Of a DNA stretch of 50,912 nt, positions 39,198 through 45,534 are shown in pieces (the first letter of the stretch is position 1; every line of letters starts with the position of its first letter). Where the stretch lies: IMG/VR virus record IMGVR_UViG_3300031696_000008, positions 1 to 50,912 of that record. One strand, given 5' to 3'. Both the position numbers and the translations under genes were made by a program. The notes under the pieces were generated by a model. That model had not been told where the DNA came from. It searched no databases and saw only the letters and a program-made list of their open reading frames with translations. This DNA comes from a virus.

Positions 39198-40540
39198 ACC
39201 TTGAATCCCTCATAATTGTTAGGTTGTTTAGGTGGTTCATCCGTCACGTTGAGGGTTTGTGCAGTATCTTCCACATCATACAGTCTCATCTTAGCCCTGT
39301 CAATACCCACAACGAACTTCTGATTAGCACCAGTTGGATCATTGTATCTGTTCTTCAATTGCTTAATCATTATCTGATTCAAGTTATCCAGTTCTTCAGT
39401 GGATATAAGAGCAAACATTAAGTCAGCCGTTGCTGGTAGACCAAACGATTCAGAAGTATCTTCCAAACCTACATCAGATGATGCAAAACCACTACGTGTT
39501 GTCTGTGTTGCAGTTAGGATTGGTAGATTAAACTCCTGTCCTAAACCACGAAGCTCTTCTGCAATAGCCTTAACATATGTATATGAGTTGATTGAACCAC
39601 CCATAGCCTTCATACGTGAGCTTGAACAGATATTCAAGTAGTCTATGCATATCAATTGAGGTACGAAGTCTCTCTTCAACTGAAGTTCTTTCAATAACGA
39701 TCTAAAGTTATTTGAGTTAGCTGCACCTGTTGGATACTCTTTAATGATTAACTTACCCACACCCTTATCAGTTAGCTTCTTTATCTTATTATCAAACATA
39801 TCTTTAGATAGATTCTCTAATTGATCAATAGGCACATTCAATAAGTTGGCATCGATACGTTCAGCGATCTTTTCCTCAGCCATTTCCATGGTGATATACA
39901 ATACATTCTTCATTTGTGTTAAGGCGCCAGCGGCAACATGACACATGAACAATGATTTACCCACACCAGTACCCGCAAGGGCAACGTTCAAAGTCTTATT
40001 AACTAAACCACCTTTAGTGATCTTGTTAAACATTGATAGGTCGAATGGTAAATGTTCCTCGCTTCTATGATAAAAATCAAATCGTGAGTCAGAATCGTCT
40101 ACATAGTCATGTCCTACGCTAATATCAAAGTTAACACTTAGTGCATCACTTAATACATCGGGTAGGGCATTCTTAGTTAACGTCTCATGCTTACCTTCTA
40201 TGATATTGATTGAATCCATGATGGCAAGATAGATTGCTCTATCCTGACACCACTTTTCTGTATGTTCAATAAGCCAAGGTAATGTTTCTTCTTTACTTTG
40301 TACACTGATCTCCGGAATAAGGGCCAATGAATCAGATCCAACCTTTGTGTTGTTTCTCAATTCAATGCTAAGTGCATCTGCGCTTGGTAGTTTGTTATAT
40401 TTGTTAACAAAGTCTACAAGTTCAGAGAACACTGCACGGTAAGGCTCTTCAAAATATATAAGCTTTAAGTGAGGAATTACGGTTCTAGTGTAATCCTCAT
40501 TAAGCATCAAGTTTCGTAAGATTAATGTTTCAATTTGCAT
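39194..40540 (-). CDS. 41: Replicative DNA helicase gp41 (DnaB-like)
   Basis: The 448-aa protein (T4 gp41: 475 aa) has an N-terminal helical domain and the Walker A AGTGVGKS at about 189-196, NVLYITMEMAEEKIAERI (DnaB motif H1a, about 207-224) and LICIDYLNICSS (Walker B, about 290-301). It unwinds DNA at the fork, loaded by gp59. It is coupled to uvsX by a TAATG overlap, whereas T4 has gene 40 between them. Confidence 0.92.
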   Translation of the reverse strand: MQIETLILRNLMLNEDYTRTVIPHLKLIYFEEPYRAVFSELVDFVNKYNKLPSADALSIELRNNTKVGSDSLALIPEISVQSKEETLPWLIEHTEKWCQDRAIYLAIMDSINIIEGKHETLTKNALPDVLSDALSVNFDISVGHDYVDDSDSRFDFYHRSEEHLPFDLSMFNKITKGGLVNKTLNVALAGTGVGKSLFMCHVAAGALTQMKNVLYITMEMAEEKIAERIDANLLNVPIDQLENLSKDMFDNKIKKLTDKGVGKLIIKEYPTGAANSNNFRSLLKELQLKRDFVPQLICIDYLNICSSSRMKAMGGSINSYTYVKAIAEELRGLGQEFNLPILTATQTTRSGFASSDVGLEDTSESFGLPATADLMFALISTEELDNLNQIMIKQLKNRYNDPTGANQKFVVGIDRAKMRLYDVEDTAQTLNVTDEPPKQPNNYEGFKV

Positions 40541-41589
40541 TAAATATCCATATCTTCAGGTGATGATTTGATCATACTCGCATGACCTACTTCGTACTTC
40601 TTCTTAAGGTACGCTTTAAAGTCTGTGTTCTTAAAGATAGGTTCCCAGAAAGCTTCCGTAAGAGTTTCAGCTGCACGAACTTTCTTCTCTTCAACCTCTC
40701 CAGTCTCTTTATCCACTTTGGAGTACCAACCAATGTTAGGCTTAACTACATATCCACCTTCCATTGCTACATCTAATAGACCAGAGTAACGTTCGATACC
40801 ACCTTCCCATGTAACACTAATAGGGATCTTAGACTTCTCACGTACAAACCTAGATTTCTCTACGTTAATCACGAAGTTATACCCCATGATCTCAGTGCCT
40901 TTCTTTTCTTGCTGGCGTCCAATGATCCAGATGTTATCACTTGAGTAATAAATACCTGTTCCACCTGACACTACAGCCTTACTGAACATCTCCATGGTTT
41001 GATATGTATGGTTAACAGCAATTAATGGAATGTCTCTCATGGTTAAATATGGAGTTGTCATTCGGAATAAACCCTTAAGGGCTTTTGCTCTTGACATATC
41101 AGCCACAGACTTTCCGTCCATAGCATCATCCATTTCCTTCTTAGAGGCAAGGTTACCAATAGAGTCAATAACAATAATGACTTTATCTTTGCGTTCGATA
41201 TTCTCTAATTGATTGATTAGATCGAACTTCAGTTCTTCCACATTAGCAATAGGGCTATGTAGAACTCGAGAAGTATCAATACCGAACGACTTAAAGTATT
41301 GTTGCGGGCTACCAAACTCTGAATCATAGAATAACAAAACAGCATCGTCATACTTTGCTAAGTATGCTGCTGCCATTAACAAGGCAAACGAAGTCTTAAA
41401 ATGCTTCGATGGTCCTGCTAATACTGTTAGTCCTGAACTCAGTCCTCCGTCTGGATCACCAGATAGTGCAACGTTAATCATTGGGACCGGTGTGGGAACC
41501 AGGTCCTTGCCAGAGAATAACTTAGATTTATCGAGAACTGCTGTCTCTTTAATCCGGCTATTCTTCTGAAGTTTATCCATTATGCCCAT
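40540..41589 (-). CDS. uvsX: RecA-like recombinase UvsX
   Basis: The 349-aa protein has a Walker A of the T4 form, GPSKHFKTS, at residues 59-67 and Walker B KVIIVIDSIGNL at about 136-147, and the overall size of T4 UvsX (391 aa). It pairs strands in recombination-dependent replication and repair. The ATG has an AAGGAGC site. An early-type promoter lies 31 nt upstream, so uvsX-41-cd form one early unit. Confidence 0.92.
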   Translation of the reverse strand: MGIMDKLQKNSRIKETAVLDKSKLFSGKDLVPTPVPMINVALSGDPDGGLSSGLTVLAGPSKHFKTSFALLMAAAYLAKYDDAVLLFYDSEFGSPQQYFKSFGIDTSRVLHSPIANVEELKFDLINQLENIERKDKVIIVIDSIGNLASKKEMDDAMDGKSVADMSRAKALKGLFRMTTPYLTMRDIPLIAVNHTYQTMEMFSKAVVSGGTGIYYSSDNIWIIGRQQEKKGTEIMGYNFVINVEKSRFVREKSKIPISVTWEGGIERYSGLLDVAMEGGYVVKPNIGWYSKVDKETGEVEEKKVRAAETLTEAFWEPIFKNTDFKAYLKKKYEVGHASMIKSSPEDMDI

Positions 41590-41619: not shown

Positions 41620-41647
41620 ATTATAACATGAATTGTGCTAATGTACA
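41620..41647 (-). promoter_or_regulatory. Early-type promoter for uvsX-41-cd
   Basis: The minus strand reads TGTACA, 16 bp, TGTTATAAT. It overlaps the last codons of the SGNH-like gene. Confidence 0.75.
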
Positions 41648-42586
41648 CTCTTCTTCACCAAATAGTTTTCGTCTATAACACTCTGGTGAGATGTGAACAC
41701 TTGACATGTTCTCCATCTTAAGTTTGGCATAAGCCTCAGGATCCATGGTTAACCATTCAGTGGGATACATAACCTTATTCATACCAAGTTCATCCATGGC
41801 ATCAATGATTTCATTTAATACCTGCTTACGATCTGCAATGCTACCCCAAAACGGTTGACCTTTATAGTAACCAGTCTTAGGTAGTTTCCTTCCTTCGAAT
41901 TCTATTGGCCAAGGTACAGCATATTCAACTGGGATACCAAGACTATCGCCGAATTCCTTATAGGATTTCCACATCTCTTTAACACTAACACGTGCAAATA
42001 TCTTTGCATCATTTATCCTGCATATATGGTGTCTAATATCGATGTTACCAAAGACCAACGTTATGCCTTTTAGATTATTGCACTCAGCAATATGATCTCT
42101 TACATACGAGAAATCAGATTTTAATTGACCGTTGAGTGTCATACCGTTGGTCTTAACAATCATGCTACCTTCAGGGGCAAAGGCTGCAGTGTGACTATCA
42201 CCTATAGTTAACCATTCGGCGTCTAAGCCGGTGGACATTAGTGTTTCGGCACCGTCGCATTTCTCTTGGACACGAGCGCACCAGTCTTTGTCTAAGACAT
42301 CTTTACGTTTGGCTAGCATGTTTCCATAGGGAGGGCAGTCCATATCTAATGAAATTACATGCTCTGCATCTAGGAAATTGTCGATGCTTTCTTTAAGAGC
42401 ATCATTGAATCCACCAAATAGATTGATAGATCCACCGAAGTTAACTCCATGGTCAAGGTATAATAACTCAACCTTTTTGTTGGAGTGGTTAATGCCACAG
42501 TTTAAATTCTCTGCCCAGCTACGAGCCCAACCATATCCATGACTGTTTGTCTTACGAGGGATTCTACTAAAAGTACCAGTTATCAT
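41621..42586 (-). CDS. SGNH/GDSL-like hydrolase, 321 aa, in the base-modification cassette
   Basis: The central TIGDSHTAAFA (about 127-137, GDSH at 129-132) is an SGNH block I, LVFGNIDIRHHICR (about 177-190) fits block III with a conserved Asn-like position, and VHISPECYRR near the C-terminus could supply block V His. The N-terminal 100 residues (YLDHGVNFGGSINLFGGFNDAL, then SLDMDCPPYGNM) form an extra domain I do not recognise. SGNH proteins act as esterases or acyltransferases. Its place beside the dCMP hydroxymethylase cassette suggests a nucleotide or DNA modification role, as an inference. Confidence 0.55.
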   Translation of the reverse strand: MITGTFSRIPRKTNSHGYGWARSWAENLNCGINHSNKKVELLYLDHGVNFGGSINLFGGFNDALKESIDNFLDAEHVISLDMDCPPYGNMLAKRKDVLDKDWCARVQEKCDGAETLMSTGLDAEWLTIGDSHTAAFAPEGSMIVKTNGMTLNGQLKSDFSYVRDHIAECNNLKGITLVFGNIDIRHHICRINDAKIFARVSVKEMWKSYKEFGDSLGIPVEYAVPWPIEFEGRKLPKTGYYKGQPFWGSIADRKQVLNEIIDAMDELGMNKVMYPTEWLTMDPEAYAKLKMENMSSVHISPECYRRKLFGEEECTLAQFML

Positions 42587-42606
42587 TTTTTCTCCTTACA
42601 GGTTGT

Positions 42607-42634
42607 ATTATATCACAGTTTTAATGGAAGTACA
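42607..42634 (-). promoter_or_regulatory. Early-type promoter for the SGNH-like gene
   Basis: The minus strand reads TGTACT, 16 bp, TGATATAAT, 21 nt upstream of the ATG at 42586. It directly follows the stop of the PLP-like gene. Confidence 0.75.
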
Positions 42635-43513
42635 TCATAAATATTTGTCCCACTGTCTATAACTATCTGTTCGGTCGTAGATACCTATGTCCTCTAAGAC
42701 TGGTTCAGCACCAACGTTCCAAAACAATATGTCCTTATCAGTATTCTTAGGAATATACTTCCAGATCTTACCGTCATATGTGGCTATACAAGGAAATGGT
42801 GGTAGGTTCTCTGCCTTCTCAGACTGAGTAAATGCTAACTTCTCTGAGATAACATCAGCTCGTCCTAATTCGCCAGCCTTCATGTTCCTTGCCACAGCCA
42901 CTGATGTGAACTTAGCATTAGGCCAAGCGATCTGTAAAGACCTTGTGAGTACACCAGTTGATGTTGCAACGTAGACTTCATCAGGTTCTTTTAATTGAGA
43001 GGCCACTTTAACCATGGCTGCAGTGACCAACCTATGCTTAAGTCCTAGGGGGATAAAGAAGTAACCATTAAGGTTTGAATCTTCTTTGGCGATACGGTTA
43101 AGGTTCGGCATGGCTGCAATACGATGGAAGCTGACGTCAGCCCCTTGTTCAATGCAACATGCTTGGTGATGTGATATGAGTTTGCTTGAAGGCATATAGA
43201 GACGTACTTTCTTACCATGTCTCTTAGCTACATCCAATATACTTAGACCAGCAAGACCAGTCCTAGGTTGCACATAGCTAACCGTGTCAGCTTTAATGGT
43301 GGACATTAGTAAATCAGCACCACGGATTTTAGTTCCAACGACCATGTCATCTCTTACACAACGAATACCGTCATGCATAGTTTCAACAATAGGTGGGTTA
43401 GGATCTTCCCAATCACCAGCAAGATCTAAATAATAGTTCTTAGCTTCTTGTGGACTCATTCCCAATTCGATATCAATGTTTCTACCGTCTTGTACGTGAA
43501 TGTTATGTGCCAT
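42635..43513 (-). CDS. Fold-type II PLP-dependent enzyme-like protein, 292 aa
   Basis: RDDMVVGTKIRGADLL at residues 54-69 resembles the lysine region of ACC deaminase/cysteine synthase relatives (Lys62). QPRTGLAGLSILDVAKRHGKKVRLYMP (82-108) is the substrate-loop and Rossmann-like segment, and ATSTGVLTRSL (183-193) stands at the phosphate-binding loop. The fold-type II family makes or breaks bonds at the beta or alpha carbon of amino acids. It is the fourth gene of the transcript that starts with Nmad1-like and dCMP hydroxymethylase. An activity on an amino-acid donor or adduct of a modified base is inferred. Confidence 0.55.
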   Translation of the reverse strand: MAHNIHVQDGRNIDIELGMSPQEAKNYYLDLAGDWEDPNPPIVETMHDGIRCVRDDMVVGTKIRGADLLMSTIKADTVSYVQPRTGLAGLSILDVAKRHGKKVRLYMPSSKLISHHQACCIEQGADVSFHRIAAMPNLNRIAKEDSNLNGYFFIPLGLKHRLVTAAMVKVASQLKEPDEVYVATSTGVLTRSLQIAWPNAKFTSVAVARNMKAGELGRADVISEKLAFTQSEKAENLPPFPCIATYDGKIWKYIPKNTDKDILFWNVGAEPVLEDIGIYDRTDSYRQWDKYL

Positions 43514-43522
43514 TATGTAAAC

Positions 43523-44527
43523 CTATATTGGTAATGTGTTATTTAGATCACGTGGTGATCCCTGTCGTTGATCCCAGCCAGATACCCAGCCTGAACTATT
43601 ACTTATATTCGAGGGAACGTGATCGTATGTGCCGTTACCCCTTGGTACATAATTCTGTCCAAAGCGAACGAAGTCACACATAACATCCTCTAAGTCTTTA
43701 GCCTTACCACCAGTTCTTTCAACCAATAGATCCATGAACTCATCAGCTTTATATCCTGTGGATAACTTCTTCATGCAACGTATTGCATTGTTACCAAGGT
43801 ATGTGTGTGAATCCACATCAACCAGTTCAGGATAGTAGTCAGAACAATCCATAGAGAAGGCAGCATATTGAAAGTTAAACTTCCTATGACCCATCTTAGC
43901 ATTGTGTTCATTCAAATAATCTACGATCTCTTTATGGCCACGCTTCTTTTGCAATAGAAAGGTTGCAGCACTCGACATTAACTCAGGCAATTCCTTTGTC
44001 ATAAAGTCAACATTGGTTGTACCTTTCTTAGGAGCTGGTGGTTGGTTACCTGTAGAAGTAAAGATTGGACCTCTTGCTTTAGACTCTATTAAGTCCTCAG
44101 CCATATCCTGCATGTCTCTATGTCTGCCCCAACGTTGGATAATGTTGTTACGGTATCCATGATCATTCTCAAATGAAGCACCTGAACCAGTGATACGGTG
44201 ACACATCATGACATACAACCATGTAGGTAGATCCCATTGAATGGTATCGTTATCCGTATTAAGTTCACGTCTTGATGTGTTCTGCCATCTCCACTTAGGG
44301 GTCTTAGATCCAAACTTTAGGTCTTGCAATACATTAGAAAAGCCTGCTGCGTTTCTCGTCTTACAATCGTAGATCTCTACCTGCTGGAGGAGAGGATCAT
44401 TGACAAAAGAATTTGCCTCTGGCCCTTCATAATCTAATGGTCCCCAATTGACATTATCCTGAAGCCATGCGGCCTTAGGATAATAGTAATTAGTGAGAAC
44501 ATCTAGGGCTTCTTCGTTAAGCCACAT
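43523..44527 (-). CDS. Putative DNA base-hypermodification transferase (aGPT-PPlase/amino acid:DNA transferase-like)
   Basis: The 334-aa protein has CHRITGSGASFENDHGYRNN at residues 109-128, with DCKTRNAAGF near 54-63 and a C-terminal VMCDFVRFGQNYVPRGNG. The helical composition and RxTGSGASF...HGY motif recall the proteins that add groups to hydroxymethyl-pyrimidines in hypermodified phage DNA, described as relatives of helix-hairpin-helix glycosylases. I rely on memory of that pattern, so the family is tentative. The context is strong: its ATG overlaps the end of the dCMP hydroxymethylase gene by 11 nt, in the slot of T4 beta-glucosyltransferase. Confidence 0.45.
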   Translation of the reverse strand: MWLNEEALDVLTNYYYPKAAWLQDNVNWGPLDYEGPEANSFVNDPLLQQVEIYDCKTRNAAGFSNVLQDLKFGSKTPKWRWQNTSRRELNTDNDTIQWDLPTWLYVMMCHRITGSGASFENDHGYRNNIIQRWGRHRDMQDMAEDLIESKARGPIFTSTGNQPPAPKKGTTNVDFMTKELPELMSSAATFLLQKKRGHKEIVDYLNEHNAKMGHRKFNFQYAAFSMDCSDYYPELVDVDSHTYLGNNAIRCMKKLSTGYKADEFMDLLVERTGGKAKDLEDVMCDFVRFGQNYVPRGNGTYDHVPSNISNSSGWVSGWDQRQGSPRDLNNTLPI

Positions 44528-45215
44528 TAGGCATTACCGGACCAGGAGTAATTAGATCAAAGTGCTTTTCATATACATGCATATTCTGTACCTGCCATAT
44601 CATTTTGCCTGGAAGAACTTCAAGGTCATTAGCTAATTCGTTTAGCACATACTTCTGCCAAGCGTAATCGTTCTTATAACCATACACTACATCATTAGAC
44701 CTCATTTGTACAACGCAATCTAACTTACCATCTCTTATATAATAAGTCACAGTGTTAGTGCATATAAAGTCTGACATACCCTTATAGTTATACTGATTCC
44801 ACATGGTAGGTCTAGTGTAGATCATCTCAGCCCTACGACTATTAGGATTTGCAATTAACTCTTCTAATACATGTTCGTATTGAAAGCTATTGTCCTCTGA
44901 GTATATTAGATGACCATAGTTAGAATTGATATATCCATCAGGTGATGCTGCGTATTGCCACGCTGCTGGTGGTTTACGGCCATCAGTGTATATGTCATTG
45001 ACATTTAATGACTGACACATATACCATTCAATCTCTTTTTTGATATACTCTGCGTTAGGTTCACCAAAGATAGATGGTTCATCAGCAAGAAAGGATGCAC
45101 CAATAAGTTCAATGCATTTAACGCCAGTCTTATCGGTGGTCATATTCATATCACACTGCTTAGAGGATATGAAATACGACCGTACATCTTTTACTCTATA
45201 CGGATTTATCATCAT
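44517..45215 (-). CDS. 42: dCMP hydroxymethylase (T4 gp42-like)
   Basis: The 232-aa protein aligns with T4 gp42 (246 aa) over almost its whole length: IELIGASFLADEPSIFG (35-51), INSNYGHLIYSEDN (96-109), NPNSRRAEMIYTRPTM (123-138), FICTNTVTYYIRD (150-162) and RSNDVVYGYKNDYAWQKYV (172-190). The catalytic Cys is Cys152. Asp183 occupies the T4 Asp179 position that selects dCMP; hydroxymethylases for dUMP and thymidylate synthases have Asn there. It converts dCMP to 5-hydroxymethyl-dCMP. It overlaps the Nmad1-like gene by 20 nt. Confidence 0.92.
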   Translation of the reverse strand: MMINPYRVKDVRSYFISSKQCDMNMTTDKTGVKCIELIGASFLADEPSIFGEPNAEYIKKEIEWYMCQSLNVNDIYTDGRKPPAAWQYAASPDGYINSNYGHLIYSEDNSFQYEHVLEELIANPNSRRAEMIYTRPTMWNQYNYKGMSDFICTNTVTYYIRDGKLDCVVQMRSNDVVYGYKNDYAWQKYVLNELANDLEVLPGKMIWQVQNMHVYEKHFDLITPGPVMPNVA

Positions 45216-45534
45216 TTTTAGGCCTATTTAAATAATCAAGTGTTGTGTCCTGCCCTTCCATTTGACCACGGATATATGCCACAGCAAAAGATGCATAGTT
45301 AATAAGATCTTTGTATGTGTCCTCCAATGATTCAAAGTTATTGGCTTCGCCTGATTCAAGTAAAGATTGGGCACGTAACATTTTACCGTGCATGGTATCA
45401 TGAATTGAATCAACTCCACGTCGATAATGCATTGCTTGTTTCACTTGTGAATTTGGATTCTGATAGTCTTGGGACTTCTTAGATTGTAACTCAGCACATT
45501 CTTGAAGAACTAAGATTGATTCTTTTTGTTTCAT
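45196..45534 (-). CDS. Nmad1-like protein (DUF1599 type), 112 aa
   Basis: The protein reads LVLQECAELQSKKSQDYQNPNSQVKQAMHYRRGVDSIHDTMHGKMLRAQSLLESG and FESLEDTYKDLINYASFAVAYI. The SQDYQNP and DTYKDLINYA blocks are typical of the DUF1599 family, also named nucleotide modification associated domain 1. It is the first gene of the transcript that contains dCMP hydroxymethylase. An AAAGGAG site precedes the ATG and an early-type promoter lies 27 nt upstream. Its precise role in base modification is not known. Confidence 0.7.
   Translation of the reverse strand: MKQKESILVLQECAELQSKKSQDYQNPNSQVKQAMHYRRGVDSIHDTMHGKMLRAQSLLESGEANNFESLEDTYKDLINYASFAVAYIRGQMEGQDTTLDYLNRPKNDDKSV

Follow-up and report, generated by a model that had tools for sequence, protein, structure and literature searches.

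A widespread phage gene cassette with a probable role in amino-acid-type hypermodification of hydroxymethylcytosine

The IMG/VR virus record IMGVR_UViG_3300031696_000008, a fragment of 50,912 bases that we analysed at full length and call the window, carries between its DNA polymerase gene (gp43) and uvsX a cassette that probably makes an amino-acid-derived hypermodified form of 5-hydroxymethylcytosine (hmC), a cytosine version of the thymidine pathway of phages M6 and ViI. The cassette combines a gp42-type dCMP hydroxymethylase, a 334-residue protein with a transferase-like predicted fold (X334), an enzyme of the pyridoxal phosphate (PLP) type (PALP) and an SGNH-fold protein (SGNH). An earlier note, made from the letters of the window alone, had proposed that the phage makes hydroxymethyl-dC and then decorates it with an amino-acid- or acyl-derived group. 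The fold of X334, the homology of PALP and an active-site Asp in the hydroxymethylase support that proposal, with the product itself as a prediction. The cassette is real and widespread, and is undescribed in the literature that we searched.

Conservation and linkage of the cassette

All cassette open reading frames (ORFs) lie on the minus strand, where the gene order is polB (gp43), MazG-like, primase-like, DUF1599, gp42, X334, PALP, SGNH, uvsX, gp41 and dCMP deaminase. The T4 counterpart of the slot between 42 and uvsX holds b-gt; here it is occupied by X334, PALP and SGNH, none of them a glucosyltransferase gene, as the earlier note had stated. The window polymerase is nearest to that of phage C48C1 (52%), followed by those of cyanomyoviruses (46%).

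Relatives of X334 were found in at least 536 IMG/VR stretches and in seven GTDB contigs, most of the latter flanked by the cassette, with a weak match in Chthonomonas (L173). A megablast of the region against 50,697 phage records returned nothing. Nor did tblastn find relatives in these records for X334, its divergent form or f15, a second X334-linked protein; the family is therefore known from uncultured viruses alone. The host phages appear to form a large T4-related group, uncultured and mostly marine.

For the linkage count we took 70 distinct X334 ORFs, each flanked by 3 kb or more of sequence at either end, and looked for PALP and SGNH within 4.5 kb. Both genes were present at 68 of the 70 loci and gp42 at 60, the two exceptions having X334 and f15 only, and all three genes (PALP, SGNH and gp42) accompanied X334 at every one of the 33 loci retrieved via X334 alone. 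About eight gene orders were seen. Written with X, P and S for X334, PALP and SGNH, they include g42-X-P-S, g42-S-P-X, g42-X-f15-P-S, g42-X-f15-S-P, g42-f15-S-P-X, S-X-f15-P and g42-X-P-f15-S, and several S-X-f15-P loci lie outside the gp42-uvsX slot, in contigs of up to 212 kb. Because the genes stay together while their order and place change, they are best read as one pathway, and the recurrence of the cassette in tens of independent loci argues that the pattern is not due to chance. Genes for UDP-glucose dehydrogenase and an epimerase, which stand near X334 in some relatives, were considered as cassette parts but judged to be neighbours in the slot, since C48C1 has such sugar genes there without gp42.

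The hydroxymethylase is of the cytosine type

The gp42-type protein (44517-45215, minus strand) matches PF00303 (E=1e-18), is about 55% identical to T4-type gp42 and aligns over its full length with the solved T4 dCMP hydroxymethylase 1b49 (E=2e-70). Its Cys152 takes the position of the catalytic Cys, and its Asp183 that of ThyA Asn177, the residue that selects dUMP. Both residues had been singled out in the earlier note, and together with the homology they give good support to gp42 as the predicted source of 5-hydroxymethyl-dCMP.

The substrate motif was unreadable in 21 of the 196 gp42-family ORFs in the loci; among the 175 readable linked hydroxymethylases it ended in 'ND' in 168, in 'YD' in two and otherwise in five. 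The window protein and no fewer than 168 of all 196 linked homologues thus have an Asp instead of the dUMP-type Asn of the M6/ViI pathway. Asp is also present in two thymidylate synthase (TS)-family genes of other lineages, one at 4 kb from the module (L253 contig) and one far from it (L276 contig). The same Asp marks contigs with modified cytosine in the MetaGPA study published in eLife (PMC8670742). The Asp in the linked hydroxymethylases points to hmC rather than hydroxymethyluracil as the handle for further modification.

X334 and f15

X334 (43523-44527, minus strand) is predicted to be a protein like amino acid:DNA transferase (AADT), of the AADT/aGPT-PPlase superfamily. Its AlphaFold model is confident and all-helical (pLDDT 85.5, pTM 0.86). 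When the model was compared with a viral structure library by Foldseek, the top three matches were orthologue-like (26-31% identity), and one of them bears the name 'Amino acid:DNA transferase domain-containing protein'. The more remote matches nearly all belong to a single superfamily, with ranks 4, 5, 7, 8, 9 and 11 going to an AADT, an aGPT-PPlase of clade 1, the 5-hydroxymethyldeoxyuridine (5hmdU) kinase of SP10, two helical-domain proteins and a phiW-14 protein. The match to the AADT-named A0A6J5LCY1 had E=7.6e-4 (15% identity, probability 1.00), that to aGPT-PPlase clade 1 E=4e-3 (probability 1.00), and that to the SP10 kinase a probability of 0.85. The earlier note had named structure searches as a test of the 334-residue protein, and these place it in the superfamily of AADT, aGPT-PPlase and 5hmdU-kinase-helical proteins, not in an unrelated family. 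We infer that X334 may work like an AADT while lying outside the Pfam ADDT and HMUDK_hel families.

The PDB fold search gave a faint likeness to AGOG-type DNA glycosylases, a PDB sequence search with X334 returned just one designed helical protein and chance matches, and Pfam and NCBIfam scans of X334 and f15 yielded nothing useful. X334 falls into two subfamilies, about 31% identical to each other, and has many invariant residues across 23-78% identity. Within the motif RITGSGASF...HGYRNN, R111, G114 and S115 never vary, and G124, Y125 and N127 hardly do; the motif coincides with the low-confidence loop of the model (residues 117-125).

The second linked protein, f15, is about 320-370 residues long and occurs in at least 407 IMG/VR stretches (examples are L050:9029-9985, L217:5998-6936 and L253:5878-6936). 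Its profile similarity to X334 is modest (hhalign 57%, controls up to 9%). It is also found solitary in pelagimyophage-like contigs, next to genes resembling those for peptide deformylase and PhoH. Upstream of X334-b and f15 in the contig L242 (4030-7002), an ORF of 266 residues resembles, by eye, an endonuclease III type glycosylase.

PALP is a relative of phage M6 gp052

PALP (42635-43513, minus strand), a fold-type-II PLP enzyme with Lys62 as its predicted Schiff-base residue, matches PF00291 below the cut-off in the window (E=3.5e-5), while 11 of 16 diverse family members match that model, the best at 2e-8. The window protein matches phrog_7093 (E=6e-34), and gp052 of Pseudomonas phage M6 belongs to the same PHROG 7093. 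Profile comparison with gp052 by hhalign gave 96.8% (E=2.9e-10, 222 columns), and the alignment is collinear through the tryptophan-rich C-terminal motif YDxKxWK...FWN[VI]G. Lys62 is invariant in 16 of 16 members and, in a weak alignment, pairs with the Lys of the cysteine synthase Schiff-base motif SVKCRIG. The gp052 homology and the invariant Lys62 bear out the assignment in the earlier note of a fold-type II PLP-like enzyme.

The DNA of M6 contains 5-(2-aminoethyl)dU, which is made from 5hmdU via a phosphorylated intermediate (PMC6449724). In the M6 cluster, gp052 has gp051 (Pfam ADDT, 160 bits) on one side and gp053 (radical SAM) on the other, and gp054 (5hmdU DNA kinase), gp055 (HMUDK_hel) and gp058 (thymidylate synthase) follow. 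Later work from the laboratory that described the M6 base reportedly traced the added groups to amino acids, which radical SAM isomerases and PLP-dependent decarboxylases reshape, and the PLP step in M6 is reportedly a decarboxylation.

The PALP relative of Erythrobacter phage R6L is fused to an N6/N4 DNA methylase (L157:6816-9236), and this fusion is a second tie of PALP to DNA modification. A PALP relative adjoins an N6/N4 DNA methylase gene in Microcystis phage Mae-JY30 (L158:7111-8702).

SGNH and its homologues in cultured Aeromonas phages

SGNH (41621-42586, minus strand) is a predicted SGNH-fold hydrolase or acyltransferase with Ser131 and His298 as its candidate catalytic residues. Searched against the PDB, its AlphaFold model (pLDDT 86.9) gave SGNH/GDSL esterases or acyltransferases as all of the top 14 matches (best E=2.5e-3, probability 1.00), among them the O-acetyltransferase PatB and another acyltransferase; the E values of all 14 exceed 0.001, yet their probabilities are near 1. 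The fold agrees with the SGNH-like hydrolase named in the earlier note. Neither Ser131 nor His298 varies among 29 diverse members. Of the SGNH block residues, Ser131 of GDSH, G153, GNID at 180-183 and His298 are conserved, and the Asp expected three residues before His298 is missing.

Homologues in cultured phages were found in 43 records, comprising 38 Aeromonas T4-like, two Stenotrophomonas T4-like and three Tenacibaculum phages, with identities of 26-33% for the Aeromonas proteins. Each of the five T4-like genomes with the SGNH family that we examined has a gp42 with Asp. Neither X334 nor PALP was found in the Aeromonas T4-like phages that have SGNH and gene 42, and the SGNH gene there lies near motA and asiA, not adjoining gp42. 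In C48C1, none of gp42, PALP and SGNH was found. ORF233c of Aeromonas phage 44RR (L155:5992-8379; 795 residues) fuses an SGNH domain to a C-terminal HMUDK_hel-like domain, which scores 17.2 bits against HMUDK_hel, below the cut-off of 25; phage 31 likewise encodes SGNH joined to a probable transferase-like domain. The phages RB69, JS98, 44RR, 31 and 25 have gene 42 and lack a glucosyltransferase, and Petrov et al. (2010) did not settle whether their hmC receives another modification (PMC2993671). ORF233c is a candidate for tailoring hmC in a cultured phage that has no known glucosyltransferase.

In Aeromonas phage Aes012 (L156:3764-7038), genes for a UDP-galactopyranose mutase and an unknown protein of 358 residues lie directly upstream of the SGNH gene, and these neighbours could hint at a galactofuranose-type decoration of hmC. 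The Tenacibaculum jumbo phage PTm1 has its SGNH homologue between ribonucleotide reductase genes (L353:6566-7585); its second TS-family gene has diverged so far that the residue at position 177 is not readable.

Proposed pathway and alternative explanations

In the pathway that we consider probable, gp42 would make 5-hydroxymethyl-dCMP, which would then be phosphorylated and incorporated into DNA as hmC, as is established for T4. X334, alone or with f15 in some relatives, would replace or decorate the hydroxymethyl group with an amino acid, as its fold and gene context suggest. PALP might then reshape the attached amino acid, or make the donor amino acid; we assign it this step because it is a homologue of M6 gp052 and its gene touches X334. 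The contribution of SGNH is more speculative and might be acyl transfer or ester chemistry, either O-acylation to activate hmC or capping or editing of the attached group. Since the SGNH gene is constantly present and no M6-type kinase was found, O-acylation would be a natural, if speculative, candidate for the activation. Taking the place of the glucose of T4, the modification would shield viral DNA against restriction and the nucleases of CRISPR systems.

Several observations weigh against this pathway. None of 29 X334 members reaches the cut-off of Pfam ADDT (PF18724) or HMUDK_hel (PF18723); in 12 cassette genomes PF18724 gave at best weak matches in two, neither of them at X334; hhalign of X334 against the transferase domains of M6, phiW-14, ViI and 44RR was not significant; and the distant fold matches are remote (TM 0.38-0.5). 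Membership of the superfamily therefore rests on the predicted fold. The contigs L242 and L270 have X334-b and f15 while PALP and SGNH are absent, and the Asp of the SGNH triad (DxxH) does not stand at its usual place three residues before His298. A 5hmdU DNA kinase (PF18748) was not detected in eight cassette contigs of up to 212 kb, save for one match below the threshold. The same model detected the kinases of M6 and ViI and missed phiW-14; as the contigs are fragmentary as well, the absence is no more than suggestive, and if real it would call for another activator of the hydroxymethyl group. Other glycosyltransferases may be encoded elsewhere in these genomes.

A more specific version of the pathway would dispense with the kinase: SGNH would esterify hmC in DNA, the AADT-like enzyme would displace the ester with an amino acid, and the PLP enzyme would reshape the product. 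We put this forward tentatively, as a possible though on balance unlikely route. If true, it would mean an unprecedented DNA base in a widespread aquatic phage lineage, and possibly also in 44RR, given its SGNH-transferase fusion.

SGNH could also be the actual transferase, leaving an O-acylated hmC with no amino acid, in which case X334 would be an AADT-fold-derived protein that binds or presents DNA and PALP would make a small acyl or amino donor. PatB and the second acyltransferase among the fold matches would suit this explanation, as would the missing kinase and the cultured gene-42 phages in which SGNH is the sole cassette member, in the absence of X334 and PALP. It is nevertheless improbable in our view, given that PALP has a homologue in the M6 pathway, that 44RR joins SGNH to an AADT-type domain, and that the invariant residues of X334 persist over such divergent sequences, as they would in an enzyme. 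There is a still smaller chance that tailoring precedes polymerisation, with hydroxymethyl-dCMP or hmdCTP as the free substrate, and that DNA receives a pre-made base. The 5hmC carbamoyltransferase does accept 5hmdCTP (PMC8670742), and the nucleotide-pool genes DUF1599 and MazG-like adjoin the cassette, but the 5hmdU-derived pathways of M6, ViI and phiW-14 are post-replicative (PMC6449724), a PALP relative is fused to a DNA methylase, and the fold of X334 resembles those of DNA-acting proteins.

An equally slim probability attaches to a sugar-based explanation, in which an unrecognised sugar transferase encoded elsewhere glycosylates hmC and the cassette modifies that sugar, for example with an aminoacyl or acyl group. 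T4 beta-glucosyltransferase (PF09198) was found in none of the eight cassette contigs, with T4 itself as a positive control, and C48C1, which lacks gp42, has sugar genes in the same slot; on the other side stand the fragmentary nature of the 50.9-kb window, the UDP-galactopyranose mutase and 358-residue protein genes before SGNH in Aes012, and the genes for UDP-glucose dehydrogenase and epimerase that some relatives have close to X334. That the genes are auxiliary metabolism or lysis genes sharing a dense slot, with PALP in host amino-acid metabolism, SGNH as an envelope esterase and X334 unrelated to DNA, is very unlikely indeed: PALP and SGNH occur together at nearly all X334 loci, in rearranged orders and at other genomic places, C48C1 lacks gp42, PALP and SGNH alike, and PALP and X334 resemble M6 gp052 and AADT. 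The metabolic names given to PALP by Pfam and NCBIfam and the sugar-nucleotide genes in the slot of C48C1, without gp42, would be what such auxiliary genes predict.

Relation to known systems and possible significance

Each part of the cassette belongs to a kind already known. What is new in the sources that we searched is to see the AADT/PLP toolkit paired with a dCMP hydroxymethylase and SGNH; the earlier note had expected the combination with dC to be new. Like the M6 cluster, the cassette groups a TS-family hydroxymethylase with one or more transferase-fold proteins and a fold-type-II PLP enzyme, homologous between the two, close to the DNA polymerase gene. It differs in that the hydroxymethylase is of the dCMP type, with Asp instead of Asn, an SGNH enzyme is present in addition, the conserved cassette has no 5hmdU kinase or radical SAM protein, and the ADDT and HMUDK_hel models miss X334 and f15. 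With the glucosylation of hmC in T4 it has in common an orthologous gp42 and the same genomic slot, whereas X334, PALP and SGNH stand in place of the beta-glucosyltransferase. Aeromonas phages 44RR and 31 (Biquartavirus; ORF233c) and 25, Aes012 and IME13 likewise combine a gp42 with Asp and an SGNH homologue, but lack X334 and PALP, keep the SGNH gene near motA/asiA and, in 44RR, fuse SGNH with the HMUDK_hel-like domain. The phages with 5hmC carbamoyltransferase have a gp42-like enzyme with Asp177 and an hmC-tailoring enzyme (PMC8670742); this TobZ-like enzyme adds a carbamoyl group, and an amino acid or PLP step is absent there. CmoX/CmoY of Synechococcus phage S-B43 also place an amino acid on cytosine, as 5-carboxymethylcytosine-glycine amide (PMC12783734), although through a carboxymethyl handle and an ATP-dependent amide ligase, without hydroxymethylase, AADT or PLP enzyme.

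Thymine is already known to receive amino-acid hypermodifications, and hmC to be glycosylated or carbamoylated. Amino-acid decoration of hmC, if true, would mean that the transferase/PLP toolkit is not bound to one base. Hundreds of IMG/VR contigs carry the module, so the base could be frequent in aquatic viral DNA, and there it would have consequences for restriction, for resistance to CRISPR and for sequencing, whether metagenomic or by nanopore. The SGNH homologue also offers a concrete candidate for the question raised in 2010 of what, if anything, protects hmC in 44RR and 31 (PMC2993671), a part that is directly testable since 44RR is cultured.

Transcription signals and neighbouring genes

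The earlier note had read the cassette as one early transcript, with SGNH following from its own promoter. Neither was confirmed. A scan found 12 sigma70-like sites, fewer than in shuffled sequences (19.1). An extended -10-like element, TGATATAAT (42607-42615, minus strand), can be read in the gap between PALP and SGNH, but an extended -10 is present at just 10 of 56 related junctions, and the two genes overlap in some relatives.

Downstream of SGNH on the minus strand lies uvsX (40540-41589). At the other end, the DUF1599 gene (45196-45534, minus strand) overlaps gp42 by 20 bp and adjoins it in many, though not all, related loci. Its protein of 112 residues matches PF07659 (E=3.8e-7, 30.8 bits, above the cut-off of 25), so that the Nmad1-like protein (nucleotide modification associated domain 1) of the earlier note was recovered. 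At a locus outside the T4 slot, a small DUF6378 (Pfam) protein stands beside the cassette in place of DUF1599 (L253:3007-3309), and a small protein similar to it replaces DUF1599 at two other such loci (L274:3337-3636 and L276:3171-3479).

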